Below, piece by piece: positions 477-27,410 of a stretch of DNA of 64,000 nucleotides; within the stretch, counting starts at the first letter, position 1, and each line of letters opens with the position of its first letter. The notes beneath the pieces are model-generated. The model did not search any database, was not told the origin of the DNA, and saw only the letters and a list, made by a program, of their open reading frames with translations. Origin of the DNA: Asanoa siamensis (lineage in GTDB: Bacteria > Actinomycetota > Actinomycetes > Mycobacteriales > Micromonosporaceae); assembly GCF_016862555.1 (NCBI RefSeq), contig NZ_BONE01000028.1:1-64000 (forward strand), in the 5' to 3' direction. A program made the position numbers and the translations under genes.

Positions 477-1709
477 TTACTGGCCGAAGAGCAAGAGTTG
501 ATCCGGGTTCAGTCGCGACCGGTGGGCGCGGCGCAGGAGCGCGGGAGCGAGATGAACCGGCTCTGCGGGGTGTTGGCCGTTGGTGCGGTCGCGCGCGCAG
601 GCGCGGACGGCATCTAGGGCTTCCTCGCGCCAGTGCAGGGCGTAGGCGAAACAGTTTCGGCAGTCCGTCGGGCGGCGTACGCCCGTGACGGCGTCGGGCC
701 GGCTGAGGTGGTTGCAGCCCGGCAGCATGAGGTGTTCGTCGCGAGCGGTCTTCGACCATGCCTGGCTGTCCGCGCTGTTGAGCAGGTGACCTGCGATCCG
801 CAACGCGTTCTGGGAAATCCCGAAGCCGTGCATGTCCAGGCCCAGGCCCAGTTCGGTGAGGGTGCCCAGGACGCGGGCCACGCCTTTTTGGGAGCCGCGG
901 CGGCAGATGCTGCCGACGCCGACCCTGCGGCCGGTGAGGTCGACGCCGGCGCGCTGGTACATCTCGACGTGCTCGACGTATTCCCACGGCCACCAGCCCT
1001 GCAGCGTCGGTAGCCAGTCGATCATCGGGAACTCTTCGGCGAGGTAGAGGTAGGACTCCACGGTGAGTTCCTGGTGCTCGCGCACCGTCTTCCCGGTCCG
1101 CTTCAACACGGCGGGTTCGCACGGCCAGTCCTGCACGCCGACGAAGTCGGGCATCAGATCTCGGGACGAGTGACCGACTGCCTCGGCGAAGCGGACCCAC
1201 ATCGCGCCGTAGTCGGCGGGCCACAGGTACCAGGGGTGGTCGCGGCGGCCGCGGGTGTTGAGCATCAGGGCCGCGTAGGCGCCAGAGTCTCCGGCCCAGG
1301 GCGTGCCGAACGTCTGCACGGGCCAGTCGTCGCCCTGCTGCTCGTACCGGCTCACGTAGCGGGCCAGGGTGGTCGCGGAGATGAATAGCGGCACGGGGGA
1401 GTGGCGCAGGTGGTGAGGGTGCCCGACCCCGAGGTAGAAGGTCATCCGGCGAGCGGGGTCGGGGTGGAACTCGCTGCGGGTGTAGGGGGTGACCGGCCCC
1501 CACTGGGTGTGCCAGCGGTCGGGGCCGAGGCCGTACCGGGCGACGTGCGCGTCCCAGCGGGCGCGGCGCTGCTCGACGGTCGGCGGCGGCGGCCACTCGG
1601 TCACGCCCCGGCGGCGCATCAACTCGAGGAGCCGCGCGGCGCGCTGCGGGTCAACACCGTACGCGGCGATGGTGCGGCGCCGGATCGCGTCCAGGTCCTT
1701 GACGATCAC
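477..1709 (-). CDS. dpdA-like: DpdA-like 7-deazaguanine DNA transglycosylase
   Basis: 410 residues. The family is related to queuine tRNA-guanine transglycosylase (TGT) and exchanges guanine in DNA for a 7-deazaguanine such as preQ0. Seen here: the core opening FYLGVGHPHHL (about 91), GDSGAY with Asp141 in the base-recognition position, VGVQDWPCEP with Asp194 as candidate nucleophile, LQGW (about 236), VGVGSICRRG (263-272), then HGFG, and zinc-ligand-like Cys332, Cys350 and Cys353 in a CRNCFAYALHW context. These are typical of phage and plasmid DpdA-type proteins rather than tRNA TGT. The GTG start shares GTGA with the stop of the upstream methyltransferase, so the two are translationally coupled. 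No preQ0 synthesis genes (folE, queD, queE, queC) are in the window, so substrate would have to come from the host. Confidence 0.82.
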   Translation of the reverse strand: MIVKDLDAIRRRTIAAYGVDPQRAARLLELMRRRGVTEWPPPPTVEQRRARWDAHVARYGLGPDRWHTQWGPVTPYTRSEFHPDPARRMTFYLGVGHPHHLRHSPVPLFISATTLARYVSRYEQQGDDWPVQTFGTPWAGDSGAYAALMLNTRGRRDHPWYLWPADYGAMWVRFAEAVGHSSRDLMPDFVGVQDWPCEPAVLKRTGKTVREHQELTVESYLYLAEEFPMIDWLPTLQGWWPWEYVEHVEMYQRAGVDLTGRRVGVGSICRRGSQKGVARVLGTLTELGLGLDMHGFGISQNALRIAGHLLNSADSQAWSKTARDEHLMLPGCNHLSRPDAVTGVRRPTDCRNCFAYALHWREEALDAVRACARDRTNGQHPAEPVHLAPALLRRAHRSRLNPDQLLLFGQ

Positions 1710-2833
1710 GCCGGCACCTCGTGAGCGTCGAAGAGCGCGAGCTGCTCAACCGGCGGGCGAAGGGCCGGGATGATCTCGGCGAGGACCCGGCCCATCGCGA
1801 AGCGCAAGGCCTCGGGATTGAGGTCGCCGCCCAGAAAGCGGCGCCCTTCGGACAGGCAGGTGACCAGCGTCGTGCCGGATCCGAGGAAGGGGTCGCAGAC
1901 CAGGTCGCCACGGCGGGTGGTGGATCGGACCAGGCGGGACACCAGGGCCGGGTGCAGGGCGTTGTCGTAGCGCAGCAGGCCGGGCCGGCGCTCGTCCGGG
2001 ATGTCGGTCCAGACGTCGACGGCGTAGATCTGGCCGGTCCGGCCGCGCGGCATCTCGGTCGGTCGGTCGAAGACCCGCTGCGGCGAGTCGAGCGGGCCGC
2101 GGGTCATCAGGGTGACCCGGTGGTGGGCGTGAACGTAGCGGCGGGTGCTGTAGAGGCCGAACGGCCGTTTGACGGCGATGGAGTTGACGTAGGTCAGGCC
2201 GGCGATGTCCTCGGCGGCGACCTGGACTCGAGCCGCCTGCTGGGCGCCGGTGATCACGGCGAGGTAGCCGCCGGGGCGTAGCGCGGCGCCGGCGGCGGCG
2301 ATCCATTCGGCGGTCCAGTCGGCGTACGCGGCCGGGTCGACGTCGATGTAGCCGCCGAGCACCTGGGAGTGGTCGCGGCCGTAGGTGCGCCGGTACGCCG
2401 AGCGGTGCTCGCCGCGCCCGAGCGCGTACGGCGGGTCCGCCACGATCAGGTCGATCGGCTCGTCGGCCTGGGCCAGCACGGTGGCCGCGGCGCCGAGCAC
2501 GAGCTCGGCCTGACCCGGGTCGCCGGACAGCCACAGCAGCAGCGCCCGGTGCGGCCGGGCGGTGGTGCCCTCGATCAGCCAGGCCGCGCGCTGGTCGTCG
2601 TCCTGACGGGCGCGGCCCTGGCGGCGCAGGGACTGTAGGGCTGAGCGGATCCGCCGCTTGTACTGCTCCTGCCCGTCCTGGATGATGCGGCGTCCGTCGG
2701 CCCGGTCGGCCAGCCCCGCCCGCTCGGCGAGCTGGTACAGCTCCGGGAGGGTGTAGCAGCCGGAGTCCAGTGTGCGCAGCAGGTCCGCCGCCGTGCGCAG
2801 CTCGCGGACCCCGGTGCCTGGCTGCCTGGTCAC
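1706..2833 (-). CDS. DNA methyltransferase, N4-cytosine/N6-adenine, beta type
   Basis: 375 residues. The catalytic motif DPPY (133-136) precedes the AdoMet-binding motif DPFLGSGTT (about 314-322), the order of beta-class amino-methyltransferases. The first 90 residues form a separate helical, winged-helix-like region with many basic residues (QEQYKRRIRSALQSLRRQG), perhaps for DNA binding. The C-terminus LALFD resembles the QLxLF-type tails of several proteins in this window. It starts with GTG inside GTGA, overlapping the stop of the Mom-like gene, and overlaps the DpdA-like gene at its own end. No endonuclease is beside it, so it is an orphan modification enzyme. Target sequence, and N4-cytosine versus N6-adenine, cannot be read from the motif. 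Confidence 0.85.
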   Translation of the reverse strand: MTRQPGTGVRELRTAADLLRTLDSGCYTLPELYQLAERAGLADRADGRRIIQDGQEQYKRRIRSALQSLRRQGRARQDDDQRAAWLIEGTTARPHRALLLWLSGDPGQAELVLGAAATVLAQADEPIDLIVADPPYALGRGEHRSAYRRTYGRDHSQVLGGYIDVDPAAYADWTAEWIAAAGAALRPGGYLAVITGAQQAARVQVAAEDIAGLTYVNSIAVKRPFGLYSTRRYVHAHHRVTLMTRGPLDSPQRVFDRPTEMPRGRTGQIYAVDVWTDIPDERRPGLLRYDNALHPALVSRLVRSTTRRGDLVCDPFLGSGTTLVTCLSEGRRFLGGDLNPEALRFAMGRVLAEIIPALRPPVEQLALFDAHEVPA

Positions 2834-3684
2834 AGCGGCACGCCCATCGCGGCGAACAGGTCTGGCGAGGGCTTGGGGTACCGGGACGGGTCGCGGTGGG
2901 CCCGCACCGCCCGGCCGTTGCGGTCGCGCTTGTAGACCTTGACGTCCTTACGCAGCGGCATGGCGTAGCGGTGCTTGCCGGGCGTGCGGCGGCGGGTCAC
3001 CTTCACGTCGAGCAGGGCCTGCCGCAGCCATTCGTGCGGCTTTTCTCCGGCCCGCATCGGCCGCGCCCCGAACGACACCAGCCGCCGCTCCGCGGCCGCA
3101 TGTCCGCGCTCCTGCGCGCGGATCTTTTGCATCGTGCGCTCGTCGAGGCACGTGCCGTCGGGCAACCAGATGGTGGTCGTGGTCTTGCTGGTGCCGAGGT
3201 AGATGCAGTTGAACGCCTGGTAGATGATGCCGACGTGCCCCCAGGCCGGGTCGGCGAAGGTGATCACGGCGTGCAGGCCCTCGTCGAGCAGCAGGGCCCG
3301 ACACTGCCCGAGCGTCCAGGTCTCGGCGTTGCCCTCGGTCGGGCCCAGCACCAGCCGTTGCAGCACCAGCGACTGCGTGTAGGGCTCCAGGTCGGGCAGC
3401 GGGTTGGTCAGCACCTTGTCCTGCGCTGGGTTTCCGTACACCGCAACGCCGATCAGCTCGCCGTGGCGGAACAGGCCGAACTGGTGGACGGCGGCCGGGT
3501 ACGAGCGAAGGTAGTGGCGACTGGTGACGAACGGCTTTGCGACGGCCTCGGCGATCGGCTGGACCTCGTAGCCGCGCGGGCTGAACCGCTCGGAGGGGTC
3601 GGCGTACGACCAGGCCGGCATCGGCTGTCCTGGCTGGGATGGGTCGCGTTCGGGCCAGCGCTGGCACCAGCGCGACGCGGTCAT
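2830..3684 (-). CDS. Mom-like DNA hypermodification protein
   Basis: 284 residues. It resembles the Mom family, a GNAT-like fold that in phage Mu converts adenine in DNA to N6-methylcarbamoyl-adenine. Matching features are VTSRHYLRSYP (53-63), FGLFRHGELIGVAVYG (69-84), the acidic turn ETWTLGQCRALLL (121-133), and ITFADPAWGHVGIIYQAFN (141-159), a typical acetyltransferase-like core. The C-terminal third is basic (KVTRRRTPGKHRY). ATG at 3684 is preferred over the upstream GTG at 3783 because it sits in an ATGA overlap with a short upstream ORF, like the other junctions of this operon. It is the second enzyme here predicted to make an unusual base. Remote homology only; another GNAT-like enzyme cannot be excluded. 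Confidence 0.65.
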   Translation of the reverse strand: MTASRWCQRWPERDPSQPGQPMPAWSYADPSERFSPRGYEVQPIAEAVAKPFVTSRHYLRSYPAAVHQFGLFRHGELIGVAVYGNPAQDKVLTNPLPDLEPYTQSLVLQRLVLGPTEGNAETWTLGQCRALLLDEGLHAVITFADPAWGHVGIIYQAFNCIYLGTSKTTTTIWLPDGTCLDERTMQKIRAQERGHAAAERRLVSFGARPMRAGEKPHEWLRQALLDVKVTRRRTPGKHRYAMPLRKDVKVYKRDRNGRAVRAHRDPSRYPKPSPDLFAAMGVPL

Positions 3685-3779
3685 CGGGCCACGCCCCGGG
3701 TGTGGGCCGCGGATGGGATCATGTCCGGCTCCTCGATGAGGGCTTGGAGGCCGGCGGCCCGCGCGGGATCTGTGATCAC
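3681..3779 (-). CDS. Short leader ORF coupled to the Mom-like gene
   Basis: A 32-codon ORF beginning GTG-ATC and ending in a TGA that shares ATGA with the start of the Mom-like gene. Its codons are strongly G/C at third positions and the peptide (key part GLQALIEEPDMIPS) is not low-complexity. It is the first start after the conserved promoter-like element, 76 nt downstream of its core, close to the distance seen in the other copies. It may be a real small protein or a translation-coupling leader. I recognise no family. Confidence 0.45.
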   Translation of the reverse strand: MITDPARAAGLQALIEEPDMIPSAAHTRGVAR

Positions 3780-3812
3780 GCACGCGGTCAGCCGGGGCCT
3801 GAGGTGGTGGTC

Positions 3813-3888
3813 GGGCTTCTGGTCTGGAGTCCGGGTGCCGACCCTCGCTCCGCCTATAATGATACCTTGTATCTATTGTGGACGGTAG
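3813..3888 (-). promoter_or_regulatory. Conserved upstream element, copy 1
   Basis: On the minus (gene) strand it reads CTACCGTCCACA, 10 nt, GGTATCATTATA (core at 3855-3866), then GGGTCGGCACCC (a small inverted repeat) and CCAGAAG. It precedes the small ORF/Mom/methyltransferase/DpdA operon. The same layout recurs before five other leftward operons, which points to a shared promoter or operator. The core contains near-symmetric TATCATTATA, usable as a -10 region or as a repressor half-site pair. Confidence 0.7.
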
Positions 3889-3919
3889 ATGAGACGTGAA
3901 TTTGCCTGGGAAAACAGCT

Positions 3920-3971: not shown

Positions 3972-4697
3972 TCAGCTATCGCGCTGCGCGGGCGGGTCGC
4001 CGTCGTGAGGGGTGGAGGACGCCGCCGCGTCTGCGGGGTCCTCGGCGGCTAGGTCGTAGCCGCCGAACGGGGTCCGGCCCGGCACGTGCCGGGTGGCCAG
4101 GCCGCTGCGGCGGGTGCGGATCGGACCGCCGTCGGTGAGCCATTTCGTCGGGTAGTGAGTGGCGACGCGGTCCACCCAGGCGCCGTGGCGCTTGCGGTCC
4201 TCGGGCACGCGGGGAACCACCGGCAGGTCGCGCCAGCCCGGCCACGCGTGGTCGCAGGCGTCCTCGACGGCCGCGTTCTCCTGGTTGCGCGGCTCGCCCT
4301 CCCAGTCGCACCCGCGGCACGCCCCGCGATACAGCAGGTCGCCGACGCAGCAGCAGTTGTCGAGGCAGTCGCAGCGCAGATCCGCGCTCAGCACGGTGGG
4401 TTGGCAGCGCGCGGTCGGCGTGTCGGGGCAGGTGATGTGCACCTCCCAGGCATGCGAGCGGCGGATCGAGCTCCAGTTGCCGTAGCGGGCGCGCCACGCC
4501 TCGACCTCGGCCGTACGGGCCACCAGGCCACGTGAAGGCGAGTCGTAGAGACTCGGCGCCGCCGTCTGAGGCCCGGGCAGCGGGGCTACCTCGGCGTCCA
4601 GGTCATCGAAGAGGGAGAGTTGCCCGGGAAGAACCTTGGTCATCGGGTTACCTGCCAGTCCTGTGACGTGCCGACCGGTGCGCGGATTCGGGTTCAT
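3972..4697 (-). CDS. DUF6349-like protein
   Basis: 241 residues. The central part matches the actinobacterial DUF6349 pattern: SHAWEVH, then LRCDCLDNCCCVGDLLYRG and CRGCDWEG (a Cys-rich, probably zinc-binding knuckle with seven cysteines at about 109-130), then NAAVEDACDHAWPGWRDLP, GGPIRTRR and TPFGGYDLAAEDP. The N-terminus carries QLSLFDDLD, a short motif shared by several plasmid and phage proteins. ATG at 4697 has GGAGAGAG before it and lies 70 nt from the conserved upstream element; an in-frame ATG at 4643 is a weaker alternative. It forms a one-gene operon bounded by a hairpin. Its biochemical role is unknown; such proteins are common in actinobacterial phages and plasmids. Confidence 0.7.
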   Translation of the reverse strand: MNPNPRTGRHVTGLAGNPMTKVLPGQLSLFDDLDAEVAPLPGPQTAAPSLYDSPSRGLVARTAEVEAWRARYGNWSSIRRSHAWEVHITCPDTPTARCQPTVLSADLRCDCLDNCCCVGDLLYRGACRGCDWEGEPRNQENAAVEDACDHAWPGWRDLPVVPRVPEDRKRHGAWVDRVATHYPTKWLTDGGPIRTRRSGLATRHVPGRTPFGGYDLAAEDPADAAASSTPHDGDPPAQRDS

Positions 4698-4756: not shown

Positions 4757-4797
4757 AAGTCCATTGTATAATGATACCTTGTGTCTACTGTGGACGG
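4757..4797 (-). promoter_or_regulatory. Conserved upstream element, copy 2
   Basis: Minus strand: CCGTCCACA, 10 nt, GGTATCATTATA (core 4767-4778), 70 nt before the ATG of the DUF6349-like gene. The downstream leader half (GGGTCGGCACCC, CCAGAAG) seen in other copies is missing or diverged, so the CCGTCCACA and TATCATTATA parts are the conserved minimum. Confidence 0.65.
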
Positions 4798-4830
4798 AAG
4801 CGTTGAGAGGATCTGAGTAGCGGAAGTGGT

Positions 4831-6236: not shown

Positions 6237-6310
6237 TGTCTTCTCCTCTCGTCTGGCCGGGTGGCCACCGTGCCGGCACGCGCGGGTCGTGCCGGCCGGA
6301 AGGTCAGCGG

Positions 6311-6406
6311 TCAGTCGGTGCGGGCGACAGCCCATGCGTCAGACAGCGGAGCGAAATTGCTCAGCGCCTTGTTCAGGTCCTCGAAGCCGCCGACGATTGC
6401 GAGCAC
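6311..6406 (-). CDS. Possible small ORF after the C5 methyltransferase
   Basis: A GTG-initiated 31-codon frame ending in TGA at 6311, between the methyltransferase stop (6430) and the next gene. The peptide (GGFEDLNKALSNFAPLSDAW) looks like a real helical protein and the frame stays open upstream into the end of the methyltransferase gene, so the start could be earlier. Could be a small protein or a chance frame. Confidence 0.3.
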   Translation of the reverse strand: MLAIVGGFEDLNKALSNFAPLSDAWAVARTD

Positions 6407-6429: not shown

Positions 6430-8187
6430 TCAGGCGGCCAGCGCGTACTCGCGTTCGAGTTGCGCACCGGTCATGCACTCGACGAGCGCGGAGACGATCA
6501 GCTCGGCGCAGGCCGCCACGACGGCGTTGCCGTACAGGCGGACCCGGGCGCGCTGCGTCTTGGCCTCGTTGCGGTAGGAGGGGTGGAACCCCATCAGCTT
6601 GCCGATCTCGTAGTCCAGCAGCATCCGGAAGTAGATGTCGGCGAGGTCGGGCAGCTCGGTGAGGACCTCCTGTGGCGGCAGGGCTAGGCCGTACCGGTCG
6701 CGGGTGGTCAGCGCTCCGGACGGTCCGGCGGCGGGGATCGCCGACTCGGCGGCGCCGTAGTAGGGCACCAGGAGGGCGTCCTGCCAGGTCACCAGCGACT
6801 GGTGGCCCGCGGTGGTGACCGTGCGAGCCGGTTCGTCGACGGGTGTGCACATCTCGGCGCCGCCGGTGTTGTTGCGCATCAGGAACGCGGGCGGCAGAAC
6901 CAGGCCGTGGTGGTTGCCCGAGGCGGTGACCGTCCCGGCCGGCTGCGTCACCGGGTACGACGCGGTCTTTGACCCGCCTCCCCGCAACGGCGTGATGAAC
7001 GGCATGGCGACGCCGGTCTCCGCGCGGGTGGTCTGGGTGCGCATCGGGCCGGTCGCCGGTGCGGCCGTCTTGTCCGGGCGGCCCTCGACCGGCACCAGCA
7101 GCGGCGGCAGGTCGACGCTGTCGGACTCGCGGGTGGTCCGGGGGAGTGTCGGGGTGGTCAGCGGTACGGCGCCCTGGTCGCCGTGCCCGCGCCGGCTGGC
7201 GCCGGTCGGCACGAGTAGCGGACCCCAGTGGCGGACCTTTCCGGCCTCGATGCGTGAAGTGGTGGCGGGTTGCAGAGCCTTCATCCCTCGGGCCTCGCGG
7301 TCGCCGATGCGCACGCCCGGGTTGGACAGGTCGATCGCGCTCAGCGCGGGCACGACCTCGGGGAAGACCTCCCGGCCCCGGCAGCGCAGTTGCGGGCACT
7401 GGTAGATGTACTGGCGGCCGTAGCTGCCCATGTCCACGCCCGGCTTCTTGAACACCTGCACCGCGTCGACGATCTGGACGCAGTTGTCGCACCAGGCTTT
7501 GGGCCGCAGCCACTTGTCCCAGTCGGGGTGGCGGCCCAGCGAGCGGTGCCAGAAGCCGACGAACAGCCGGTTGCGGGACTGTCCGGCCCACGGCGCGCGG
7601 ACCGGGCGGGCGTGCATCGCGTTGAACGCGATGAGCCGCACGTAGTAGCCCAGGTTGCGCAGTTCGAGGATCCAGCGGTCCCACTCGGCCCACAGACGGC
7701 ACTGGACGACGTTCTCCATCATGCCGATGAGCACCGGCTCGCGTGGGTTGCGTTCGATCATGGCGCGCAGGTAGCGCGGGATCTCGTTCATCAGCAGCCG
7801 CGACCGCTTGTACTGCTTGATCCGGCGCTGCAACTGCGGGTCGTCCTGTTTGGCACCGGGCATCTCGAACAGCGCGGTCTGCTCGGCGTTGGCCTTGTCG
7901 AAGTCACGCTTGATGCCCCTCGAATCGGTCCAGCCAGGGCAAGCGGGGGAGCTGGTGAACAGGTCGACCCGCGGCATGGTCGTCATGTCGAGCTTGGTGA
8001 CGTCCTGCTGGTAGTGCCGAGCGTTGGGGAAGTTCAGCTCGTGCTGTTCACAGGCGTCCGCGTCGTGGTTCGCGGCGTCGGTCGTCTCGATCCACGTGCG
8101 GAACCGATCGCCGAACCCGTCGCCGATGAAGTGGACGCCGTGGTCGGTGCCACCGAGGCCGGAGAACTCGGAATAGTGGGTGATCAT
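6430..8187 (-). CDS. C5-cytosine DNA methyltransferase with SPAC motif
   Basis: 585 residues. Recognised by motif I FSGLGG (8-13), a catalytic-loop motif SSPACPGWTDSRG with Cys83, motif VI MMENV (156-160), motif VIII QSRNRLF (203-209), and the late motif LYGNAVVAACAELI near residue 560. The catalytic loop reads PAC instead of the usual PCQ, a variant known from phage and archaeal relatives that still carries the cysteine. A long segment of about 300 residues between motif VIII and the end contains several T[TV]TxA[GS]xxxGL-like repeats and may be the target-recognition region. ATG at 8187 is preceded by AGAAGG; the frame is open further up to 8274 but would then run through the conserved promoter-like element. 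First gene of the operon ending at 5170. Confidence 0.8.
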   Translation of the reverse strand: MITHYSEFSGLGGTDHGVHFIGDGFGDRFRTWIETTDAANHDADACEQHELNFPNARHYQQDVTKLDMTTMPRVDLFTSSPACPGWTDSRGIKRDFDKANAEQTALFEMPGAKQDDPQLQRRIKQYKRSRLLMNEIPRYLRAMIERNPREPVLIGMMENVVQCRLWAEWDRWILELRNLGYYVRLIAFNAMHARPVRAPWAGQSRNRLFVGFWHRSLGRHPDWDKWLRPKAWCDNCVQIVDAVQVFKKPGVDMGSYGRQYIYQCPQLRCRGREVFPEVVPALSAIDLSNPGVRIGDREARGMKALQPATTSRIEAGKVRHWGPLLVPTGASRRGHGDQGAVPLTTPTLPRTTRESDSVDLPPLLVPVEGRPDKTAAPATGPMRTQTTRAETGVAMPFITPLRGGGSKTASYPVTQPAGTVTASGNHHGLVLPPAFLMRNNTGGAEMCTPVDEPARTVTTAGHQSLVTWQDALLVPYYGAAESAIPAAGPSGALTTRDRYGLALPPQEVLTELPDLADIYFRMLLDYEIGKLMGFHPSYRNEAKTQRARVRLYGNAVVAACAELIVSALVECMTGAQLEREYALAA

Positions 8188-8204: not shown

Positions 8205-8291
8205 GGACTTCTGGAACGTCGAGGCGGGTGCCGACCCAACCTCTGCATATAATGATACCCCTTCTAGGTTTCATTCGTCTACTGTGGACGG
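8205..8291 (-). promoter_or_regulatory. Conserved upstream element, copy 3
   Basis: Minus strand: CCGTCCACAGTAGAC, an extra 13 nt compared with other copies, GGTATCATTATA (core 8248-8259), GGGTCGGCACCC, CCAGAAGTCC. The core lies 61 nt before the ATG of the C5 methyltransferase. The longer gap between CCGTCCACA and the core argues that the two parts are separate sites, or that this copy is an altered one. Confidence 0.7.
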
Positions 8292-8387: not shown

Positions 8388-9377
8388 TCACCGGACTGCG
8401 AGGTCCGGGCCGAACAGGTCCAACTGCTGCTCCTCGTCGGGGGAGCCATGGGTCGGCTCGGCGCCGTCGGGGGAGGCATGCCGGACGCGCTTCGCGCCGC
8501 GGACGCCGGCGCGCACGCCGGGGGTGATGCCCAGCGAGCGGCGCAGCGCCTCGTACTCGCCGTAGCCGCCGTCGTCCAGGGCCTTGCTGAAGGCGTCGAC
8601 GACCGGGATTCCCTCCGGTGTCACCATGCTCGCGAGGCCGGGGACGTTCTCCATGACGAACGCCCGTGGCCTGATCTCGCAGATCAGCCGGGCGAACTCG
8701 AAGACCAACGAGTTGCGGGGGTCCATGACGTCGCGCGCGCCGGCCATCGAGAAGCCCTGGCACGGCGGCCCGCCGGTGACCAGCGCGACGTCGCCGACGT
8801 CCAGGCCGAGCGCGTCGAGGACCTGCGCGCCGGTCAGGTTCCGCACGTCGGCGACGAAGAACTGCTCGCAGCCGTACGGGTGGGCCGGCGGACGGTTCGT
8901 GTCGGCGAGGTAGTCGTTCGGGTAGCTGCCCGGGTCGTGTGGCCGGCCGTACCCGGAGATCCAGCCGCTTCCGGCCAGCGGGCCACGGTGAACGTATCCC
9001 TCGGGAGCGACGAGATTGCCGTCGCCGTCGAGCTTGAGGCCCATCGCCTTGGCCAGGTGCCGCTCGAATGCCTCTTCCCGCTCGGGGCGGTCGAAGTGCA
9101 CCTTTACCCCGGGCACGGCGAGGTTGACCATGTAGGTGGTGGCCGCGATGAGGTCCATCTCCACCGCGGCGGCCACGTGGAAGCCAGCCTGGTGCAGGCC
9201 GCAGCCGAAACCACCGGCCCCGGCGAACAACTCGACCGCCACCGGCAGCTCGTAGCGCCGGCGCGGTCGCGGCGGGACGAGCAGGCCCAGCGGGGACTTG
9301 GTCCATCCGGCGACCCGGTCGCTGCCGGGTGGTAGCGGCGATGGCGCGCCCGGCCCTCGGTGGTTGGTCGTGTGCAC
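8388..9377 (-). CDS. C5-cytosine DNA methyltransferase, C-terminally short
   Basis: 329 residues. Motif I FAGAGGFGCG (51-60), motif IV GGPPCQGFS with catalytic Cys206, and motif VI VMENV (241-245) are canonical. The protein then ends with a linker and the tail QQLDLFGPDL without the QxRxR motif VIII, target-recognition domain, or motifs IX and X of full-length enzymes. It may be a naturally split enzyme needing a partner, a decayed copy, or a compact variant. The N-terminal 40 residues are proline- and arginine-rich. GTG at 9377 is preceded by GGAAAGGA. It is the second gene after conserved element copy 4, following the unknown gene at 9593 across 215 nt in which I find no convincing gene. 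Confidence 0.75.
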   Translation of the reverse strand: MHTTNHRGPGAPSPLPPGSDRVAGWTKSPLGLLVPPRPRRRYELPVAVELFAGAGGFGCGLHQAGFHVAAAVEMDLIAATTYMVNLAVPGVKVHFDRPEREEAFERHLAKAMGLKLDGDGNLVAPEGYVHRGPLAGSGWISGYGRPHDPGSYPNDYLADTNRPPAHPYGCEQFFVADVRNLTGAQVLDALGLDVGDVALVTGGPPCQGFSMAGARDVMDPRNSLVFEFARLICEIRPRAFVMENVPGLASMVTPEGIPVVDAFSKALDDGGYGEYEALRRSLGITPGVRAGVRGAKRVRHASPDGAEPTHGSPDEEQQLDLFGPDLAVR

Positions 9378-10061: not shown

Positions 10062-10137
10062 GGACCTCTGGTGAAGAGGACGGATGCCGCCCGCCCTTTC
10101 CTCTATAATGATACCCCTTCTAAGGGTTTGAAGGTAG
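10062..10137 (-). promoter_or_regulatory. Conserved upstream element, copy 4
   Basis: Minus strand: CTACCTTCAAA, 11 nt, GGTATCATTATA (core 10104-10115), a degenerate leader hairpin, CCAGAGGTCC. The core is 59 nt before the GTG at 10045. Its upstream half overlaps the last codons and stop (10120) of the N6-methyltransferase gene, which may explain why CCGTCCACA is altered here. Confidence 0.65.
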
Positions 10138-11460
10138 CTCTCGACGGCGAGGATTTGTTGAGCCAGGGCCAGGTTGGTCAACGATCAGGTCCAGCAGATC
10201 GAGCTGGACGGCGCGGGGCGCAGCGGGAACGACCTCGTGCGTCGTGGCGGCGGGCAGCGCGTCGACGACGGAGTCGTCGGTATCGGCCCCGGCGGCCGGC
10301 GGCGTCCATGCCCGGCGCGCCACCGGGAGCGCCTTGTCGACCAGGTCGCCGTCGTTGCCGCACTCCACGCACAGGACAGCCGGGTCGCCCTCCATGCCGT
10401 GGCTGTCCGGGAGCAGCGGCCAGCAGTAGGTGTGCAGCCCGAACACACCCCGGGCGTCGTTGTCGCCGTCGGCGTAGCCCCAGACCAGGCGGGGGCAGAG
10501 CATGCACCGGCCGGCGAACCGCACGAGCCGGTCCGAGCCGTGCCACGCGTCGTAGCGCACCTGCACCGGCATGGCCCGGCCCGCGCCCAGGCTGGTCTGC
10601 GGCTGCTGCACCCGCGCCGGCACCTCGTCGCCGGTGTAGCGGCGCAGCAGCCAGGTTGGCCGGTTGTCGCCGGCCGGGGGCTTGTCCAGCCACAGAACAC
10701 CCACGCCGATTCCGATCCCGGGAAAGTCCGTGGAGGTCAGCGGGCGGAAGCCGCCGTGGTCGGCGGCGAGCGCGCGCACCGCCCGGAACCGTGGGCCCCG
10801 TCGGTCGGTGAATCCGGCGGGGACGATCGCGACCAGCCGGGCGCCCGGCGCCAGCAGCCCGTAGGCCAGTGTGACGTGCTCGATCCAGATCGAGTCTGCG
10901 CCAGTGATGTTGAACGGCGGGTTCATCACCACGGCGTCGAACCGGATGGGACGCTGCTCCGCGTACTCCTCCAGCGTGGTCCGTCGGCAGCTTGCGCCGG
11001 TGTCGAGCAGCGTCTCGTAGCGGGCTGCGTCCGGCTCCAGCGCCAGGACGTCCAACTCGCGGCCTGCCCGCCGGATTTCGCGCACGAGCGAGCCGTCGCC
11101 GGCTGAGGGCTCGAGTATCCGGGCGCCGGCCGGTAGCGACGCCAGGTCGGCGAACTCCGGCCCGCAGACTCGTCTGGCGAGCGCCGCCGGGGTCGGCACG
11201 TAGCCCTCGCTGTGCCGGTTGGCGATCGCCTGGCCATCGGCGAGGATGCGCCGCACGACGGGTGCGGCCGGGCCGGGAAACAGCCATCCGGACTTGCGTG
11301 GGATGTAGGTGCCCCCAGCGGTTTCCAGCACCTGTTTCGTCGCCGCCCAGGCCGGGCCGGCGATGCGCTGGGTCAGCAGCACGGCGTTGCCATCGACGGT
11401 GGCGCCGTCGAGGGCGGCGCGGGCCGCCGCGGTCAGGGTTACCGGTCTGCCACCGGGCAT
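10120..11460 (-). CDS. N6-adenine DNA methyltransferase with Cys-rich tail
   Basis: 446 residues. The N-terminal 90 residues (VLETAGGTYIPRKSGWLFPG) resemble the substrate-side domain of plasmid and phage adenine methyltransferases. Motif I is EPSAGDGSL (117-125), and the catalytic motif is NPPF (180-183) followed by NITGADSIWIEH. The C-terminal third holds CMLCPRLVWG, LHTYCWP and CVECGN, suggesting a zinc-binding module. ATG at 11460 is preceded by ACGAGGACG; longer readings upstream are arginine-rich. The gene ends inside conserved element copy 4. It could read on from the gene at 12,942 or have its own promoter; a hairpin lies between them. Confidence 0.8.
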   Translation of the reverse strand: MPGGRPVTLTAAARAALDGATVDGNAVLLTQRIAGPAWAATKQVLETAGGTYIPRKSGWLFPGPAAPVVRRILADGQAIANRHSEGYVPTPAALARRVCGPEFADLASLPAGARILEPSAGDGSLVREIRRAGRELDVLALEPDAARYETLLDTGASCRRTTLEEYAEQRPIRFDAVVMNPPFNITGADSIWIEHVTLAYGLLAPGARLVAIVPAGFTDRRGPRFRAVRALAADHGGFRPLTSTDFPGIGIGVGVLWLDKPPAGDNRPTWLLRRYTGDEVPARVQQPQTSLGAGRAMPVQVRYDAWHGSDRLVRFAGRCMLCPRLVWGYADGDNDARGVFGLHTYCWPLLPDSHGMEGDPAVLCVECGNDGDLVDKALPVARRAWTPPAAGADTDDSVVDALPAATTHEVVPAAPRAVQLDLLDLIVDQPGPGSTNPRRRELPSNP

Positions 11461-12960: not shown

Positions 12961-13037
12961 GGACTTCCGGTCGGGAGGTCGGGTGCCGCCCCTAACCCCT
13001 GCCTATAATGATACCTCTTGTCCTGTGTGGACGGTAG
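12961..13037 (-). promoter_or_regulatory. Conserved upstream element, copy 5
   Basis: Minus strand: CTACCGTCCACA, 10 nt, GGTATCATTATAGGC (core 13004-13015), GGGGCGGCACCC, CCGGAAGTCC. The core is 62 nt before the ATG at 12942. This is one of the best-preserved copies. Confidence 0.7.
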
Positions 13038-13077
13038 CCGGAAGCAGCTCAGACTTGGAGAGGCGGCACGTCAGAAC

Positions 13078-14377: not shown

Positions 14378-14395
14378 GGCGCTCCTTCCACGTAG

Positions 14396-14475
14396 GGACT
14401 TCTGGGTGCAGCGGGTCCGGTTGCCGACCAGACCGTGCATCAATAATGATACCCCTAATCTATTGTGGACGGTAG
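14396..14475 (-). promoter_or_regulatory. Conserved upstream element, copy 6
   Basis: Minus strand: CTACCGTCCACAATAGA, then GGTATCATTATT (core 14442-14453, last base differs), GGTCGGCAACC, CCAGAAGTCC. The core lies 65 nt before the ATG at 14377. Confidence 0.7.
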
Positions 14476-14518
14476 TCGGGCCCGGCACGCAACCTGCGAA
14501 AACGGTTGCCAAGAAACG

Positions 14519-17942: not shown

Positions 17943-18389
17943 GTGACGACAACGCTCGGCGACATGGCGCATGGCGACACTCGAGTGCGGGAGGGTCGTG
18001 GCCGTGACCGGACCCACCTGTATCCGGGCCGGCCGCGGCGGATCGCTCCGAGCTTCACCGAACAGGAGATGGCCGACGTCCAGAAGGCGGCGGAAGACGC
18101 CGGTCTGACGCCGACCGGGTTTTTGGCCGAGGCGGGCTTGGCCGCCGCCCGGGGAACCCCGCCCGCGTCGCTCGACCGCGGCCGCGAGGGCCTGGCGCAG
18201 CTGCAGGCCGAGTTGTTCGACGCGCGTGTCGCCGTCGGTCGGATTGGCACCAACCTCAACCAGGCCGTGGCCGCCCTGAACGCCACCGGGGCGGCCCCGG
18301 ACTGGTTGATACAAGCCGTCGCGATGTGCGAGCGCAGGATGCAGGCCCTCGATGAGGTGATCTCGATGGTCGACCGGCGGCTCCAGTGA
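17943..18389 (+). CDS. MobC-like relaxosome accessory protein
   Basis: 148 residues. The pattern SFTEQEMADVQKAAEDAGLT, then PTGFLAEAGLAAARG and VGRIGTNLNQAVAALNATG, is typical of MobC/plasmid mobilisation accessory proteins with an N-terminal ribbon-helix-helix DNA-binding fold; IGTNLNQ is the family signature. It should bind oriT and help the relaxase open the DNA. GTG at 17943 lacks a clear ribosome-binding site and an ATG nine codons... further on is also possible. Its stop overlaps the relaxase start (GTGA), so the two are coupled. Confidence 0.8.
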   Translation: MTTTLGDMAHGDTRVREGRGRDRTHLYPGRPRRIAPSFTEQEMADVQKAAEDAGLTPTGFLAEAGLAAARGTPPASLDRGREGLAQLQAELFDARVAVGRIGTNLNQAVAALNATGAAPDWLIQAVAMCERRMQALDEVISMVDRRLQ

Positions 18390-19858
18390 TCCCATCGATC
18401 CACAAGCGCGGTACCCGGGTCGGCGGGCTCATCCGCTACCTGTACGGGCCCGGTCGTCGAGAAGAACACCGCGACCCCCGGTTGGTGGCCGCGTGGGACG
18501 GCGCCGGACCGCTGTCCCGCCTCGAGCCGGTGGCGGGCCCGGGCGGCAAGCTCGATTTCACCCAACTGGTCGATCTGCTCGAGCAGCCTGTCCGGGCGGG
18601 CCGCAACCCACCGCAGCGCACGGTGTGGCACACCTCCGTGCGCAATCACGCCTCCGACCGGACGCTGAGCGACCAGCAGTGGGCGCACATCGCCAGGGAG
18701 ATGGTCGCCGGCTCCGGTCTGGCGCCCCACGGCGACACCCGGGCAGTGCGGTGGATCGCGGTCCGCCACGCCGACGACCACATCCACATCGTCGCCACCC
18801 TGGTCCGTCAGGACCGTCGCACCGAGTGGGGACGCAACGACCGCTGGCGATGCCAGCGGACCGCCCGGGACCTTGAGGAGCGCTACGGTCTGCACCGGGT
18901 CGGGCCCGCCGACCGCACCGCCGACACCCGCGCCCACCGGGCCGAGGTCAACAAGGCCCGGCGCACCGGTCGCCGCGAACCCGCCCGTAACCGGCTGCGC
19001 CGGGAGGTGCGCTTCGCCGCGGCGGCCGCCGGATCCAGCGCCGAGTTCTTCGACCTGCTTCGGGCGGCGGGCCTGCAGGTCCGCCTGCGGCACAGCAGCA
19101 CCGATCCCGGACAGGTCACCGGCTACGCGGTCGCCCTCGATGGGCACACCATCGCCGATGGCACGCCGGTCTGGTACGGCGGCGGCCGGCTGGCGCCCGA
19201 CCTGACCCTGCCCCAGCTGCGGACCCGCTGGGACGAGACCTCGACCGGCGAGGCGGCCCCGCCACTGATCGAGCAGGCCGAGGTCTACCGGCAGGCCGCC
19301 GAGCAGGTGCGCGCCGCCGCCGAGGCCATCCGCCAGCGTGCCGCGGGTGGCCAGGGTGCCGCCGGCGCGGACGCGTACGCGGCCGCTGACGCCCTCACCG
19401 TCACCGCTCGAATGATGGAAGGCGACGACCCGCGAGGGCCGCTGCATCGCGCGGCCCGCGTGCTCGACCGAGCCACCCGCGAACCGTACCGGCGTCCGCT
19501 GCCGCGGACCCGCCGCGCCGAGGGCCTGCGGTCCATGTCGCGGCTGATGAAACTGGCCGGACAACTCAGCGACAACGCGGCCGTGTTCGAAGCACTCCGC
19601 ATGGTCATGCAGATGTCGCTGCTGGCCGACGCCCTCGCCGACATGCGCGAAAGCCAACAACGCCTGCACCAGGCCCGCGCCGCCCGCGCCGCCGCCGGGC
19701 TGCTGCGCACCGCTGGCACCAGGCAGGGCACGACGTCGCCGGCCGTGGCGGACACGGGGGTAACGCCGCAGCCAACGCCACCGTCAACCCCTCCACCAAC
19801 CGGCGCCCACGATCGTCGACGTCAGGCCCGGTCCACCAACACGGGCCGCGGCAGGTGA
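18386..19858 (+). CDS. Relaxase (MobA/VirD2-like)
   Basis: 490 residues. The actinobacterial relaxase start is clear: GGLIRYLYGPGRREEH. The metal-binding motif is HADDHIHIV with His132 and His134, preceded by AVRWIAVR. After about residue 160 the protein becomes helical and arginine/alanine-rich (a long segment with QAAEQVRAAAEAIRQRA), and the C-terminus is proline-rich. It should nick oriT, stay bound to the 5' end, and be taken to the VirD4-like coupling protein. A catalytic tyrosine is presumably Tyr18 or Tyr20 in RYLY, but this is not proven. GTG start within GTGA. Confidence 0.85.
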   Translation: MIPSIHKRGTRVGGLIRYLYGPGRREEHRDPRLVAAWDGAGPLSRLEPVAGPGGKLDFTQLVDLLEQPVRAGRNPPQRTVWHTSVRNHASDRTLSDQQWAHIAREMVAGSGLAPHGDTRAVRWIAVRHADDHIHIVATLVRQDRRTEWGRNDRWRCQRTARDLEERYGLHRVGPADRTADTRAHRAEVNKARRTGRREPARNRLRREVRFAAAAAGSSAEFFDLLRAAGLQVRLRHSSTDPGQVTGYAVALDGHTIADGTPVWYGGGRLAPDLTLPQLRTRWDETSTGEAAPPLIEQAEVYRQAAEQVRAAAEAIRQRAAGGQGAAGADAYAAADALTVTARMMEGDDPRGPLHRAARVLDRATREPYRRPLPRTRRAEGLRSMSRLMKLAGQLSDNAAVFEALRMVMQMSLLADALADMRESQQRLHQARAARAAAGLLRTAGTRQGTTSPAVADTGVTPQPTPPSTPPPTGAHDRRRQARSTNTGRGR

Positions 19859-23376: not shown

Positions 23377-25383
23377 TCAGCTGTTGCGTTGAGCCGCCGC
23401 AGCGGCGGGCAGCGCAGCCCGCCGAGGCCGCTCACGCAACGCCGCTCTGGCAGACGCTGGCGCCGTCGTCGGCCCCTGATCCTGGCGCGCCAGCCGCGCG
23501 GCGTTCATGGCGTCGCGGACACGGTCCGGGCGAGGCCGCACCACCAGCACGGCCGCCGCCGGGCCCCCGAGCCGGCTGAGGGCGGCCGCACCGGCGGCGG
23601 GCTGCTGGCGCTCCAGCGCCTCCCGCAACTGCGCCGGTGTCGCGGCGGACAGCGACCGGCCGGACAACACGATCCGCGTCACCGGCACATCGATGCGGTT
23701 GACGCCGATGGCCCCACCGCGTACCGATGCGGTCAACGCGCCGTCCCCCGGGCGGGTCGGGGCGCCGGGACCGGCCCGCCCGCGCAGCGTGTGGTCAATC
23801 GTCAACGGGCCTATCCATCGGGGCGTCATGGCGTAGGCGCGGGCATCTCCGGCCCACGCGACGGTGAACCTCTCGCGCCCCGCGACCGGCCGGTCGCCGT
23901 CGAACGAGGTGAGCACCACGATGCTGGCGTTGCCCTGGTGTGCCGCGCCGAGGGCGGCAAAGTGGGTATTGACCGCCGTGCGGGCGATCTCGACGGCCCG
24001 CCGCGCGCCGACCAGGACCGCGACCCGGCCGGCGACCTCGCCGGCCAGAGCAGCGGCGTCGCGGTCAGCGGCGGTGTCGCCGGCGCCTTCGGCGATCACC
24101 CAGGCGGTGTGGCCGGTGCCCGGGTCGTGTTCGACCCAGGTCGCGGCCGCGCCCGACGAACTGGTCCGGGCGTACTGGTGTCCCACGGCCTCCGGGTCGG
24201 GAAACCCGGCGCCGCTCATCGGCGTGGCCGCTCCGGCGGCGGACTCGACCGCAGCCGCATCCGGCGCAGGGGCCTGCCCCGGATCGCCGATCAGGTCGTC
24301 GTCCCCGGGCGGGTAGATCGCCTCGAAGACGGTCAACGGGTTGAGGTCCAGTCGTAGCGTCACCTGGTGGGTCAACCGCGCCGCAGCCACCGCATCCCGG
24401 TCGCCTACCTCGGCCAGCAGCGGCGCCACGGCGCGCAGTGCGTCCAGGCGTATCTGAAACGACTCCGAGGACGGGTCCCGACCGAAACGCGCGAGTTCGG
24501 CGAGCCGTTGACGGAGCCGGTCCAGGTGCGGGGTCATCCGGTGCTCGGCGACAACGTCGACCAGCGGCGTGCGAGCCAGCGCGAGAGCGGCGACCGCGGC
24601 CATTGACCCGTCGGCGATCAGTGACGCCGGATCCGACCCGGCCGGAAACGACATGGCCTCAACCGGCCCTGACCAGTCGCGCAGCAACTCGTAGGACTTG
24701 TCGATCGCACCCTGCCCAGCGGCGTCGGCGTCGAATGCGGCAGCGATCGGGGTGCCGGACGGGACCGCGTCGGCCAGCAGCGCGACTTGCTCGGCGGTCA
24801 GCGCGGTGCCGCACGGAGCGACCGCCACATACGGGCGGTTGCGGTCGGGTAGCGACGGGCGCAGCCCGGCCACCGCGACCACGTCCGCGGGACCTTCCAC
24901 GATCATGACCAGGTCGGGCTGAGCTCCGTCGCGGAGTTGCTCCGCGAGTCCGTACAGCACGGCCTTCTTCGAATAGATCGCTGTGCTGGTGGTGTTGCGG
25001 TACTTCGGAGTGCCGGGCCGTCCGGACACGTCACGGCCGGTGAAGGCGACGACCTGGCCGTCTGCATCGCGGATCGGGAACATGACCCGGTCACGGAACA
25101 CATCGATCAGGTTTCCGTTGCTGGTTTTGGTGATCAGCCCGGCGTCGAGCAACTCCGAGTCAGTGAACCCGGCAGCCCGAAGGTGCTCTCGCAGAACCAC
25201 CCAGCCGCGTGGCGCGTAGCCGATGGTCCACGGCGTGTCCTGGGCGGTCGCCGCCACGATTCCGCGGCTGCGAAGGTACGCCAGTGCCCGGGGTTGGTCG
25301 GTCAGGTGGGAGCGGTAGAACTCGGTGGCTATTTCGTGCGCGGCGATGAGTCGCCGCGGGTCGGGGTCGGTGCGTCCGTTCAT
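23377..25383 (-). CDS. DnaG-type primase fused to PP2C-like domain
   Basis: 668 residues. The N-terminal half is a DnaG primase core without the CHC2 zinc finger: DVFRDRVMFPIRDADG (94-109), PKYRNT, the toprim motifs VEGPADVV with Glu163 and FDADAAGQGA with Asp218 and Asp220. Residues about 400-620 resemble a PP2C phosphatase: VIAEGAGD (429-436), VAWAGDARAYAM (508-519) and LTIDHTLR (527-534). The metal-binding ADGMGG of active PP2C reads AEGAGD here, so activity is doubtful. ATG shares ATGA with the coupling-protein stop. It could prime the complementary strand after transfer, with the PP2C-like part sensing or regulating. The fusion is unusual. Confidence 0.75.
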   Translation of the reverse strand: MNGRTDPDPRRLIAAHEIATEFYRSHLTDQPRALAYLRSRGIVAATAQDTPWTIGYAPRGWVVLREHLRAAGFTDSELLDAGLITKTSNGNLIDVFRDRVMFPIRDADGQVVAFTGRDVSGRPGTPKYRNTTSTAIYSKKAVLYGLAEQLRDGAQPDLVMIVEGPADVVAVAGLRPSLPDRNRPYVAVAPCGTALTAEQVALLADAVPSGTPIAAAFDADAAGQGAIDKSYELLRDWSGPVEAMSFPAGSDPASLIADGSMAAVAALALARTPLVDVVAEHRMTPHLDRLRQRLAELARFGRDPSSESFQIRLDALRAVAPLLAEVGDRDAVAAARLTHQVTLRLDLNPLTVFEAIYPPGDDDLIGDPGQAPAPDAAAVESAAGAATPMSGAGFPDPEAVGHQYARTSSSGAAATWVEHDPGTGHTAWVIAEGAGDTAADRDAAALAGEVAGRVAVLVGARRAVEIARTAVNTHFAALGAAHQGNASIVVLTSFDGDRPVAGRERFTVAWAGDARAYAMTPRWIGPLTIDHTLRGRAGPGAPTRPGDGALTASVRGGAIGVNRIDVPVTRIVLSGRSLSAATPAQLREALERQQPAAGAAALSRLGGPAAAVLVVRPRPDRVRDAMNAARLARQDQGPTTAPASARAALRERPRRAALPAAAAAQRNS

Positions 25384-27410
25384 GGCCGCCGTGCCGAGCC
25401 GCGGAAGCGCGGCATCCGCGACGTGGTCGAGTGGATCGAGTCGACGGGCCCGCCGGAGCTGTCGGCCTCGCCGGTTCCGTCTGCTCCCGAGCTCTCCCGC
25501 AACGGCGCAGGCTCAATGCCGGCCGGGGTCCCAGTGCTCGGCTGAGGTGCGCGCTCGATGACGGTCGGGGACGCGAGCGCAGGCAGCTTTACTCCCTGGG
25601 CGGACAGGTCGCTGATGAGTCGTTCCTGCTCGGCGGCGTCGGAGATTTCGGCGATCGCGGCGGCGGTTTCGGCGGTGAGCGTGGCCGCGGCGGGCTGGCG
25701 GTACCACGGGCTGAGTTCCAGCATGGCCGGCCGTGCGCCGGAGGCGAGCAGGATCGCGTGGCCGCGTTTGAGCGCCCGAACGTCCTCGGGGCCCAGGATG
25801 CGCTGCCGGCGGACGCTGATTTGGCGCGACATGGTGCCGGAGCCGTCGCGGGTCATCGATAGCGTGGCGACGTCGTGCTCGCCGACCAGAGCGGATACGT
25901 CGGCGGCGAACCGGGGGTCGTCTGCGCCGGCGCCGATGAGCTTTACGGTTGCGGCTCCCCACAGGGTGCCCATGCCCCGGTCGCCCCACACCGTGGTGCC
26001 CTGTTGATAGGTCTGCAGGATGGTGACCAGGATGATGCCGCGGCCGCCGTAGTGGCTGTAGAGCTGCGGCAGGTCGGCCAGGGGGCAGATGTTCGCCGCC
26101 TCGTCGAGCATGCACAGCATGGGTGGGTCGAGACGGCCGCCGCGTGCTTCGGCGCGACGCACACCGTGGCGCATGACCTGGTCGGTCAGGGCCGCCACGA
26201 GCGGTCCGCTGGAGCCGGCGCCGTCCTTGGACAGCAAGTACAGGGTGTCGCGGCTGAGGGGGAACAGGTCCGGGTTGAACTGGTCGAGGCCTGTCTCGGT
26301 GCCGGGTTGGTTGACCCAGGCCATGATGCGGGGGTCTTGGAGGCATTTTGCCGCCGTACGGGCGGTCTCGTAGATGCCGTCCCTGGTCTCCGGCGCACCG
26401 TTCTGCCTGCCCCGCAGCGCTCGGGCCACCTCGGGAAATCCGCCTTCGAACAGCAGGCCGACAGGTTCGTCGTCGCCGGCGTCGGCCAGCCACGCCTGCA
26501 CGTCGCTCATGCCGGCGCCCCTGGCCGCGGCGGCGAGGAAGAAGCTGGTCAGCAGGTCCTCGGCGGCGAGCAGCCAGAAGTCCTCGCCCTTGTCCCGCTT
26601 GATGGGCTGCACGAAGTGCGACGCCATCCGCGAGGCGTCTTCGACCGAGCTGATGCTGCTCAGCGGGTTCCACCACCAGCCTTGTCCGGTGCGGGTGATG
26701 CCCTGTGGGTCGAACACCCAGTTTCGGCCCACGCGGGCCCGGGCCGCGCGGGTCGTTGCCCACACGTCAGCCCGGTTGGAGGTCGCCACTACCGCGCCGG
26801 GGGCGTCGAGGATCAACGGCACCGCCAGCGAGGTCGTCTTTCCGGCCCGCGGGCCCATCACCGCGAGCACGCCGTCCTCCCAGGAGGCCCGCAGCGTCGG
26901 CCCGCGCCGGCCGGGGAGCACCATCGTGCCCAGCGCGACGCCGAGGTCGGCGCCGGCGAGCTTCTTGACCGGGGTGTCGCCGAGGCTGGGCCGCAGCTGC
27001 AACGCCCGCTTGGTCACCCCGGCGGGCGTGAGGTCGGCAACCTCGCGAGGACGGGCCATCGACGGCAGCGGGTCCCCGGCGTGCGTGCGCCGACGCTCCC
27101 AGATGACCCAGCCGGCCGTCACGGGCGCCGCGGCGGCCGCCACCAGCGCGCCGTAGACGCCTGCGACGGCGGTGTGATTGACGTGCGGATACAGCACGGC
27201 CCATTGGCCATGGAGCAGCCCGTCGACGAATGCCGCGCCGAAGGCTGGCCCGCCGGGCTGGTTCGTCATCGCCGAGGTCAGCGCACCGGCGGCCCACGCC
27301 AGCCATGCCAGCGCGATCGCCCCCCACGCCGCGGCGAGCAGCAGGAACGGCGTCAGCGGCATGGTGCCGGCGCTGGAGCGGGGTTGCACCGGGTGTTGGG
27401 ACAGGCTCAT
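25380..27410 (-). CDS. VirD4/TraG-like coupling protein
   Basis: 676 residues from ATG at 27410 (ATGA overlap with the VirB4-like stop). Two membrane helices (about 19-47 and 83-103), Walker A MGPRAGKTTS (185-194), Walker B CMLDEAANICPL, and the family motif VTILQTYQQG. This is the inner-membrane ATPase that brings the relaxase-DNA complex to the type IV channel. The C-terminal 100 residues are proline/serine-rich. It overlaps the primase-PP2C gene by 4 bp, which ties that protein to transfer. Confidence 0.88.
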   Translation of the reverse strand: MSLSQHPVQPRSSAGTMPLTPFLLLAAAWGAIALAWLAWAAGALTSAMTNQPGGPAFGAAFVDGLLHGQWAVLYPHVNHTAVAGVYGALVAAAAAPVTAGWVIWERRRTHAGDPLPSMARPREVADLTPAGVTKRALQLRPSLGDTPVKKLAGADLGVALGTMVLPGRRGPTLRASWEDGVLAVMGPRAGKTTSLAVPLILDAPGAVVATSNRADVWATTRAARARVGRNWVFDPQGITRTGQGWWWNPLSSISSVEDASRMASHFVQPIKRDKGEDFWLLAAEDLLTSFFLAAAARGAGMSDVQAWLADAGDDEPVGLLFEGGFPEVARALRGRQNGAPETRDGIYETARTAAKCLQDPRIMAWVNQPGTETGLDQFNPDLFPLSRDTLYLLSKDGAGSSGPLVAALTDQVMRHGVRRAEARGGRLDPPMLCMLDEAANICPLADLPQLYSHYGGRGIILVTILQTYQQGTTVWGDRGMGTLWGAATVKLIGAGADDPRFAADVSALVGEHDVATLSMTRDGSGTMSRQISVRRQRILGPEDVRALKRGHAILLASGARPAMLELSPWYRQPAAATLTAETAAAIAEISDAAEQERLISDLSAQGVKLPALASPTVIERAPQPSTGTPAGIEPAPLRESSGADGTGEADSSGGPVDSIHSTTSRMPRFRGSARRP

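Follow-up and report, generated by a model that had tools for sequence, protein, structure and literature searches.

The Mom protein of bacteriophage Mu is an adenine-modifying enzyme. DpdA-type transglycosylases are encoded within dpd islands (dpdA-C plus dpdD-K) or as singletons in phages, such as those of Mycobacterium, and the DpdA-only phages, which form the largest group in PMC6884629, were called difficult to predict there with respect to their modification status (statements on papers cited by PMC number refer to the accessible portions of their texts). Mom enzymes and a deazaguanine system were reported within one genome for the jumbo phage PA5oct (PMC7824862). Here, we analyzed bases 1-64000 of the 101,664-bp contig NZ_BONE01000028.1 of Asanoa siamensis (assembly size 8.78 Mb; genome G000 below). 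This 64,000-bp stretch, termed the window, belongs to a mobile element, probably a plasmid, and carries an operon in which a Mom-like protein, a DNA methyltransferase and a DpdA-like protein are coupled.

The three genes are located on the minus strand in the order Mom-like protein, methyltransferase and DpdA-like protein, with 4-bp GTGA overlaps at both joints. A chain of this kind had been proposed in an earlier reading of the sequence alone (the original prediction), and open reading frames (ORFs), Pfam and PHROG confirmed it. The first gene (2830..3684) encodes a Mom-like GNAT of 284 aa from the ATG at 3684 (PF25680, 1.1e-29). Its ORF (2830-3783) also offers a GTG start at 3783, leading to a protein of 317 aa; the ATG is the likelier start, because the CQRW motif of the family is kept. 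The middle gene (1706..2833) encodes a beta-type DNA methyltransferase of 375 aa (PF01555, N6_N4_Mtase, 4.2e-26) with the motif DPPY followed by DPFLGSGTT, whose target we assume by motif rules to be N6-adenine rather than N4-cytosine. A DpdA-like DNA transglycosylase of 410 aa is encoded by the last gene (477..1709; PF23859, 1.4e-40). With respect to a cognate endonuclease, a PADLOC scan of 8 genes gave a single restriction endonuclease match, which was weak (0.015) and concerned 5442-6335.

The Mom-like protein matched PF25680 with 104 bits (cut-off 27.1) and the Mom-like PHROG with 4.5e-32. When it was used as single sequence in a PDB search, 8bv8 ("Methylcarbamoylase mom"), the entry of the inactive mutant S124A of phage Mu Mom, was the sole match (E 1.3e-5), and a profile of 22 Mom sequences also retrieved 8bv8 (3.9e-22), with other chains at 0.015 or weaker. 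The AlphaFold2 model of a 263-aa form of the protein (pLDDT, i.e., predicted local distance difference test, 90.8) matched the fold of 8bv8 with E 1.5e-11, the next entry, from among other GNATs, being at 8.2e-5 or weaker. Structure prediction, the check named beforehand in the original prediction, thus supported the Mom-like identity, and the sequence, profile and fold matches to 8bv8 ruled out an unrelated GNAT acting on small molecules. At the position of Mu S124 (Mu Mom taken from NC_000929), 17 of 21 relatives have Ser and 4 Thr, and the equivalents of Mu D149 and G153 are kept in 21/21. The protein resembles Mu Mom in sequence, predicted fold, the equivalents of D149 and G153 and the presence of Ser or Thr at the S124 position; it differs in its longer C-terminal part, in having Thr rather than Ser there and in being encoded on a bacterial mobile element, where it is coupled to a methyltransferase and a DpdA.

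The DpdA-like protein, the single PF23859 match in its own assembly, scored 139.6 bits (cut-off 27) and also matched the PHROG "queuine tRNA-ribosyltransferase" (3.8e-46). All 50 PDB fold matches listed for its model (pLDDT 82) were tRNA-guanine transglycosylases (TGTs), the best one with E 3.3e-7. Two aspartates, D141 (DSGAY) and D314 (ADSQAWS), are invariant in 56/56 DpdA sequences. In a profile comparison, D314 aligned with D264 of Escherichia coli Tgt (77% probability, E 2e-5), a residue that lies outside the invariant columns of the four-sequence alignment used, and D141 corresponds to Tgt D89 by the DSG motif only. We take Tgt D264 to be the nucleophile and D89 to be the general base. 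The family match, the best folds and the two invariant aspartates support the view that the protein is a TGT-related transglycosylase, as had been predicted. It shares with the singleton DpdA proteins of Mycobacterium phages the sequence family (tblastn, same tree) and the absence of adjoining genes for 7-cyano-7-deazaguanine (preQ0) in the window, but has an N-terminal extension of ~90 residues and a Mom/methyltransferase partner; two mycobacteriophage records that were checked, TiniBug and Yoshand, contained no Mom. In common with the dpd island, the locus has a TGT-fold enzyme presumably acting on DNA, and DUF6884, the domain of dpdC (PMC11888242), occurs in both contexts. Unlike that island, the window gave no match to DndB, DUF6884 or QueC-E, and the dpd-type island at locus L185 uses a PF01702 TGT.

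Pairing of Mom with DpdA is established by the recurrence of the two genes in sequence data. In a family survey of 300 Micromonosporaceae genomes (G numbers; matches with E up to 0.001), DpdA and Mom were each present in 29 genomes, 28 (DpdA) and 24 (Mom) of them above the cut-off. Both genes occurred in 14 genomes versus 2.8 expected (hypergeometric p 7e-9, a value that treats related genomes as independent, which they are not), and in 12 of these 14 they were on the same strand and at most 10 kb apart (termed paired genomes), G030 and G125 being the exceptions. Among 396 genomes drawn from across the phylum, Mom was present in 7 and DpdA in 3, and both only in the window's own genome. The order Mom, methyltransferase and DpdA is found in G000, G101, G119, G107 and Salinispora pacifica CNR114, the methyltransferase having DPPW instead of DPPY in the last three. 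The G101 copy is 100% (Mom), 98.4% (methyltransferase) and 94.4% (DpdA) identical to that of the window. Between G119 and G107, the ratio of nonsynonymous to synonymous substitution rates (dN/dS) was ~0.18 for Mom, ~0.19 for the methyltransferase and ~0.21 for DpdA; for the distant pair of window and G119, Mom had a dN/dS of 0.69 (dS 0.99), so that for Mom, a clear signal of purifying selection is limited to closely related copies. In G122, the methyltransferase is truncated.

The pairing is also found in other gene orders and on plasmids. DpdA is followed by Mom with a 4-bp overlap on two plasmids, Kitasatospora purpeofusca pKP058 and one from Streptomyces NBC_00445; locus L098 has the order PAPS-reductase-like gene, Mom, DpdA, and L101 the order DpdA, one gene, methyltransferase, Mom. 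Direct 4-bp overlaps of Mom and DpdA, in either order, are present in L098, L186, L187 and L071. A search of the plasmid collection returned 54 records with a DpdA match and 93 with a Mom match (60 of the 93 being listed); at least 9 records had both genes, which were adjacent in at least 6 from Streptomyces/Kitasatospora, and since these include two pairs that look like near-copies, about four are distinct. Mom-DpdA pairs are also present on IMG/VR contigs. A quick DpdA tree without bootstrap was calculated with 102 rows from the 139 loci with a DpdA match, 33 near-copies or repeats and 4 loci below 100 bits (L026, L027, L177, L210) having been left out, of which L177 is Mom-linked. A loose definition of Mom linkage covered 22/102 rows and required 8 changes on the tree; a strict one, which drops L193, L125, L128 and L024 as distant, broken or on the opposite strand, covered 18/102 and required 7. 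As well-supported branches force at least 5 changes, the association was gained or lost several times.

The operon shares a promoter-like box of 36 nt with other genes of the window, where its core ATAATGATACC occurs in 8 exact copies versus 0.00 expected. Six copies are located in one orientation upstream of minus-strand genes: at 3854..3889 (core on the plus strand) upstream of the mom operon, at 4766..4801 upstream of the DUF6349 gene, at 8247..8282 upstream of the Dcm-like gene, at 10103..10138 (60 bp upstream of 9593-10045), at 13003..13038 (63 bp upstream of 11668-12942) and at 14441..14476 (directly upstream of 13415-14440). The copies at 17330 and 59937 are not followed by such a gene. 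In contig C119 of the own genome and in G101 the box precedes ParB-like and PAPS-reductase-like genes, and in G253 a DUF6884-DpdA gene. Perhaps it represents the signature of a regulon or a leading-region promoter of these elements. An interpretation of the box as folded RNA found weak support (covariation term -0.08). The box was also seen in L061, L181, L062, L069 and L192.

We assign a probability of about 0.5 to the operon being a co-regulated multi-mark DNA self-protection (anti-restriction) module of a mobile, probably plasmid-type, actinobacterial element. According to this model, one box-bearing promoter would lead to coupled translation of the Mom-like GNAT, the methyltransferase and the DpdA-type transglycosylase. 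The Mom-like enzyme would modify adenine at N6 in double-stranded DNA, as does Mu Mom, and the sequence-specific methyltransferase would methylate its own sites. DpdA would excise guanine via a covalent Asp314 intermediate and insert a 7-deazaguanine (preQ0 or a derivative), provided by a host pathway or by salvage. Together with two C5-methyltransferases of the window, several unlike marks would be placed on the element DNA, and the restriction enzymes of a new host would fail. That DpdA acts on DNA rather than on tRNA is suggested by its coupling to DNA-modifying genes and by the absence of a clear tRNA-TGT from all 12 paired genomes.

Regarding the base required by DpdA, the original prediction had stated that preQ0 genes and dpd restriction genes (dpdB-K) are absent. 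For the window, the first part was correct, as tblastn gave no QueC-E match, and it did not hold for the genome, where contig C55, distinct from the window contig, carries a folE-queC-queD-queE operon with queE open throughout; a host without preQ0 genes is thereby ruled out. C55 is unlikely to be part of the element, since it contains ORFs whose beginnings, by our reading, resemble Ku/ligase and transporter proteins and the genome of G101, which has a near-identical element, gave no QueC match. The second part stood for those dpd genes that were searched by tblastn in the window, i.e., DndB-like (dpdB), DUF6884 (dpdC-like) and dpd-type TGT probes found nothing there, with the region beyond the contig end not excluded; the Pfam scans included no models for dpdD-K. 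A second, partial QueC-like match is present in G000 at C120:1636-2013 (34 bits). The C55 genes form an island (L180/L223) that is shared with L220 (G111 C4) and L218 (G253 C1, folE not called) and also contains a short reverse-transcriptase-like ORF and a DUF6884-like ORF as well as glycosyltransferase-, radical SAM- and deacetylase-like ORFs (labels by reading; Que/FolE by blast, DUF6884 matched). The dpd-like islands L184 and L185 (G111 and G018) have queC-queE-queD, a GTP-cyclohydrolase-like ORF and a DUF6884-like ORF, to which L185 adds the PF01702 TGT and DndB.

Fifty-two genomes were searched for QueC ("clear" meaning E < 1e-20), Vut and TGT. Clear QueC was found in 3/12 paired genomes, in 4/14 with a Mom-unlinked DpdA and in 1/26 without a DpdA match. 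The only clear tRNA-TGT (E 5e-43) was that of G003, an unpaired genome, and weak TGT matches were obtained in four genomes, one of them paired (G111, 5e-4). Vut occurred in 3/52 genomes, two of them paired; because of this rarity, and as the G119 copy adjoins a different DpdA, the VUT transporter was rejected as the source of the base. Other PF23859-type DpdA genes adjoin queE-queD-queC (L133), queC (L159) or a VUT/YhhQ-type transporter gene (L130, L135, L157, L160, L193), which indicates that the family touches deazaguanine metabolism; in L193, a broken Mom lies some 4 kb from DpdA. Salvage or host supply can suffice, as phage MED16 with dpdA alone has 2'-deoxy-7-amido-7-deazaguanosine (dADG) in its DNA (PMC8306585). 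DUF6884 is fused to the N-terminus of Mom-linked DpdAs in G174, G249, G253 and L177, and a DUF6884 gene directly precedes the Mom-like gene in five loci from Streptomyces and Streptacidiphilus (L190, L201, L202, L204, L208) without a DpdA within the stretch examined. The domain matched in 46/300 genomes and was near Mom in just 3, so it may not mean DpdC.

Several observations weigh against the proposed self-protection module. The fold scores of DpdA with TGTs were moderate (TMq 0.41, root-mean-square deviation 10.9), and searching the PDB with a DpdA sequence profile gave no match at E up to 1. The window protein carries T122 at the Mu Ser124 position, a conservative change. Some copies have decayed, with ~6.7 kb of other genes interrupting DpdA in G111 (L064) and with a split Mom in Salinispora. 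The partners also occur apart, as 17/29 Mom-bearing genomes have no linked DpdA, Mom was within the stretch examined in 5/80 IMG/VR DpdA loci (80 kept of 261 found), any Mom match was present in 9 of the 54 records behind DpdA loci (above cut-off in 7), and the DUF6884-bearing DpdA of G186 (C1) is not Mom-linked. No clear QueC was found in 9/12 paired genomes and neither clear QueC nor a Vut match in 7/12; a deazaguanine source thus is missing in most of them. The DpdA of phage CAjan, required for dPreQ0 in that phage (PMC6884629), matched neither PF23859 nor the DpdA profile built here, so that the case for deazaguanine use by the PF23859 family is made by the family name and by gene neighborhoods like that of L133. 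In the DpdA-only phage Orion, whose host lacks the pathway, the DNA contains no 7-deazaguanine (PMC6884629). Finally, the RepA part of the G101 continuation described below had no match in the own genome. The CAjan and RepA results lowered our confidence in self-protection and raised that in an orphan DpdA, which is considered next.

It is possible, albeit unlikely, that the base inserted by DpdA in most of these hosts is neither preQ0 nor 7-amido-7-deazaguanine (ADG), or that the enzyme works only after transfer to a preQ0-making host. The counts for paired genomes (clear QueC 3/12, clear tRNA-TGT 0/12, Vut 2/12) fit this idea, as do the near-identity of the G000 element, in a host with queC, to that of G101, in a host without it, the purifying selection on DpdA and the position of the preQ0-type CAjan DpdA outside the PF23859 family. 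However, L133 links a DpdA of this family to queE-queD-queC, Vut was the only transporter searched for, and dADG is made in MED16 with dpdA alone (PMC8306585). We are more doubtful about a single compound modification, in which DpdA places a 7-deazaguanine that is the substrate for acylation by the Mom-like GNAT, e.g., at an aminomethyl or amide group, so that the two enzymes would jointly produce one hyper-decorated guanine. Its appeal lies in the repetition of the pairing in separate DpdA lineages, in the direct 4-bp Mom/DpdA overlaps in both orders (L098, L186, L187, L071) and in the DUF6884 genes beside Mom in the five loci mentioned above, which tie Mom to deazaguanine chemistry. Opposed to it are the 17/29 Mom genomes without linked DpdA, the retention of the residues common with the adenine enzyme Mu Mom and the distribution of DUF6884, which with 46/300 genomes and 3 occurrences near Mom may not mean DpdC. 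Its fuller form, in which Mom-like GNATs partnered with DpdA or with DpdC-like DUF6884 proteins acylate the 7-deazaguanine placed by DpdA and the co-regulated PAPS-reductase-like ATP pyrophosphatase supplies or activates the base, could account for the orphan DpdAs of hosts that lack preQ0 genes; it is doubtful to the same degree.

The element might also have gathered anti-restriction genes under one promoter without any joint action of their products. The box indeed precedes the DUF6349 gene, the Dcm-like gene and several unknown genes, and each enzyme family is also found alone, but the 4-bp overlaps and the pairing recur across backgrounds and gene orders, and we regard such unlinked cargo as improbable. 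Hardly credible, finally, is a function of the DpdA-like protein as tRNA-guanine transglycosylase. In its favor, tRNA TGTs lead the list of PDB fold matches, and phage homologues are annotated as such; yet the paired genomes have no clear tRNA-TGT and mostly no QueC, and the gene sits among DNA-modifying enzymes.

In the literature searched, a description of a Mom-DpdA operon was not found, the nearest being the remark on PA5oct in PMC7824862; as this search mostly did not cover subscription literature, it is weak evidence for novelty. The presence of both chemistries in one genome is common to PA5oct and the window's host, whereas one coupled operon is not described for PA5oct in the accessible text. 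What appears to be new is that Mom and DpdA recur as a tight pair in genomes and on plasmids of actinobacteria. The repeated partner Mom and the box shared with ParB-like and PAPS-reductase-like genes offer a concrete system for finding the base that DpdA-only enzymes insert. If the self-protection reading is true, mobile elements stack unlike DNA marks, which bears on how plasmids cross restriction barriers and on the transformation of Micromonosporaceae.

The mobile setting assumed in the original prediction was supported by a MobA/VirD2-like relaxase (18386..19858, plus strand; PF03432, 5.4e-8) and a TraG/TraD-type coupling protein (25380..27410, minus strand; PF12696, 4.3e-29, and PF02534, 1e-26) in the window and by RepA beside the G101 copy. 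The contig end is close to DpdA, with 476 bp between the stop codon of this gene and the first base of the window. In G101, the near-identical element runs on past DpdA with RepA (RepA_C), ParB-like and PAPS-reductase-like genes, and contig C119 of the own genome matches the ParB/PAPS part of this continuation (97%). Since the RepA stretch found no match in the own genome, the plasmid nature of the own element is inferred.

Genes of the window were called locally with a home-made codon model, and the Pfam scan covers 25 of the 54 predicted genes. Upstream of the operon, all on the minus strand, are genes for a DUF6349 protein (3972..4643; PF19876, 1.2e-54), a divergent C5-methyltransferase-like (Dcm-like) protein (6430..8187; PHROG 116, 2.6e-33; NCBIfam dcm, 2.7e-8, under the cut-off) and a C5-cytosine methyltransferase (8388..9377; PF00145, 2.2e-27). 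DUF6349 genes are near Mom also on one Streptomyces and one Leifsonia plasmid. A giant ORF on the plus strand (35354-47536, 4060 aa, scanned as 3842 aa) showed methyltransferase, SNF2/ResIII and UvrD helicase matches, a layout that in our view recalls DarB-type anti-restriction proteins.

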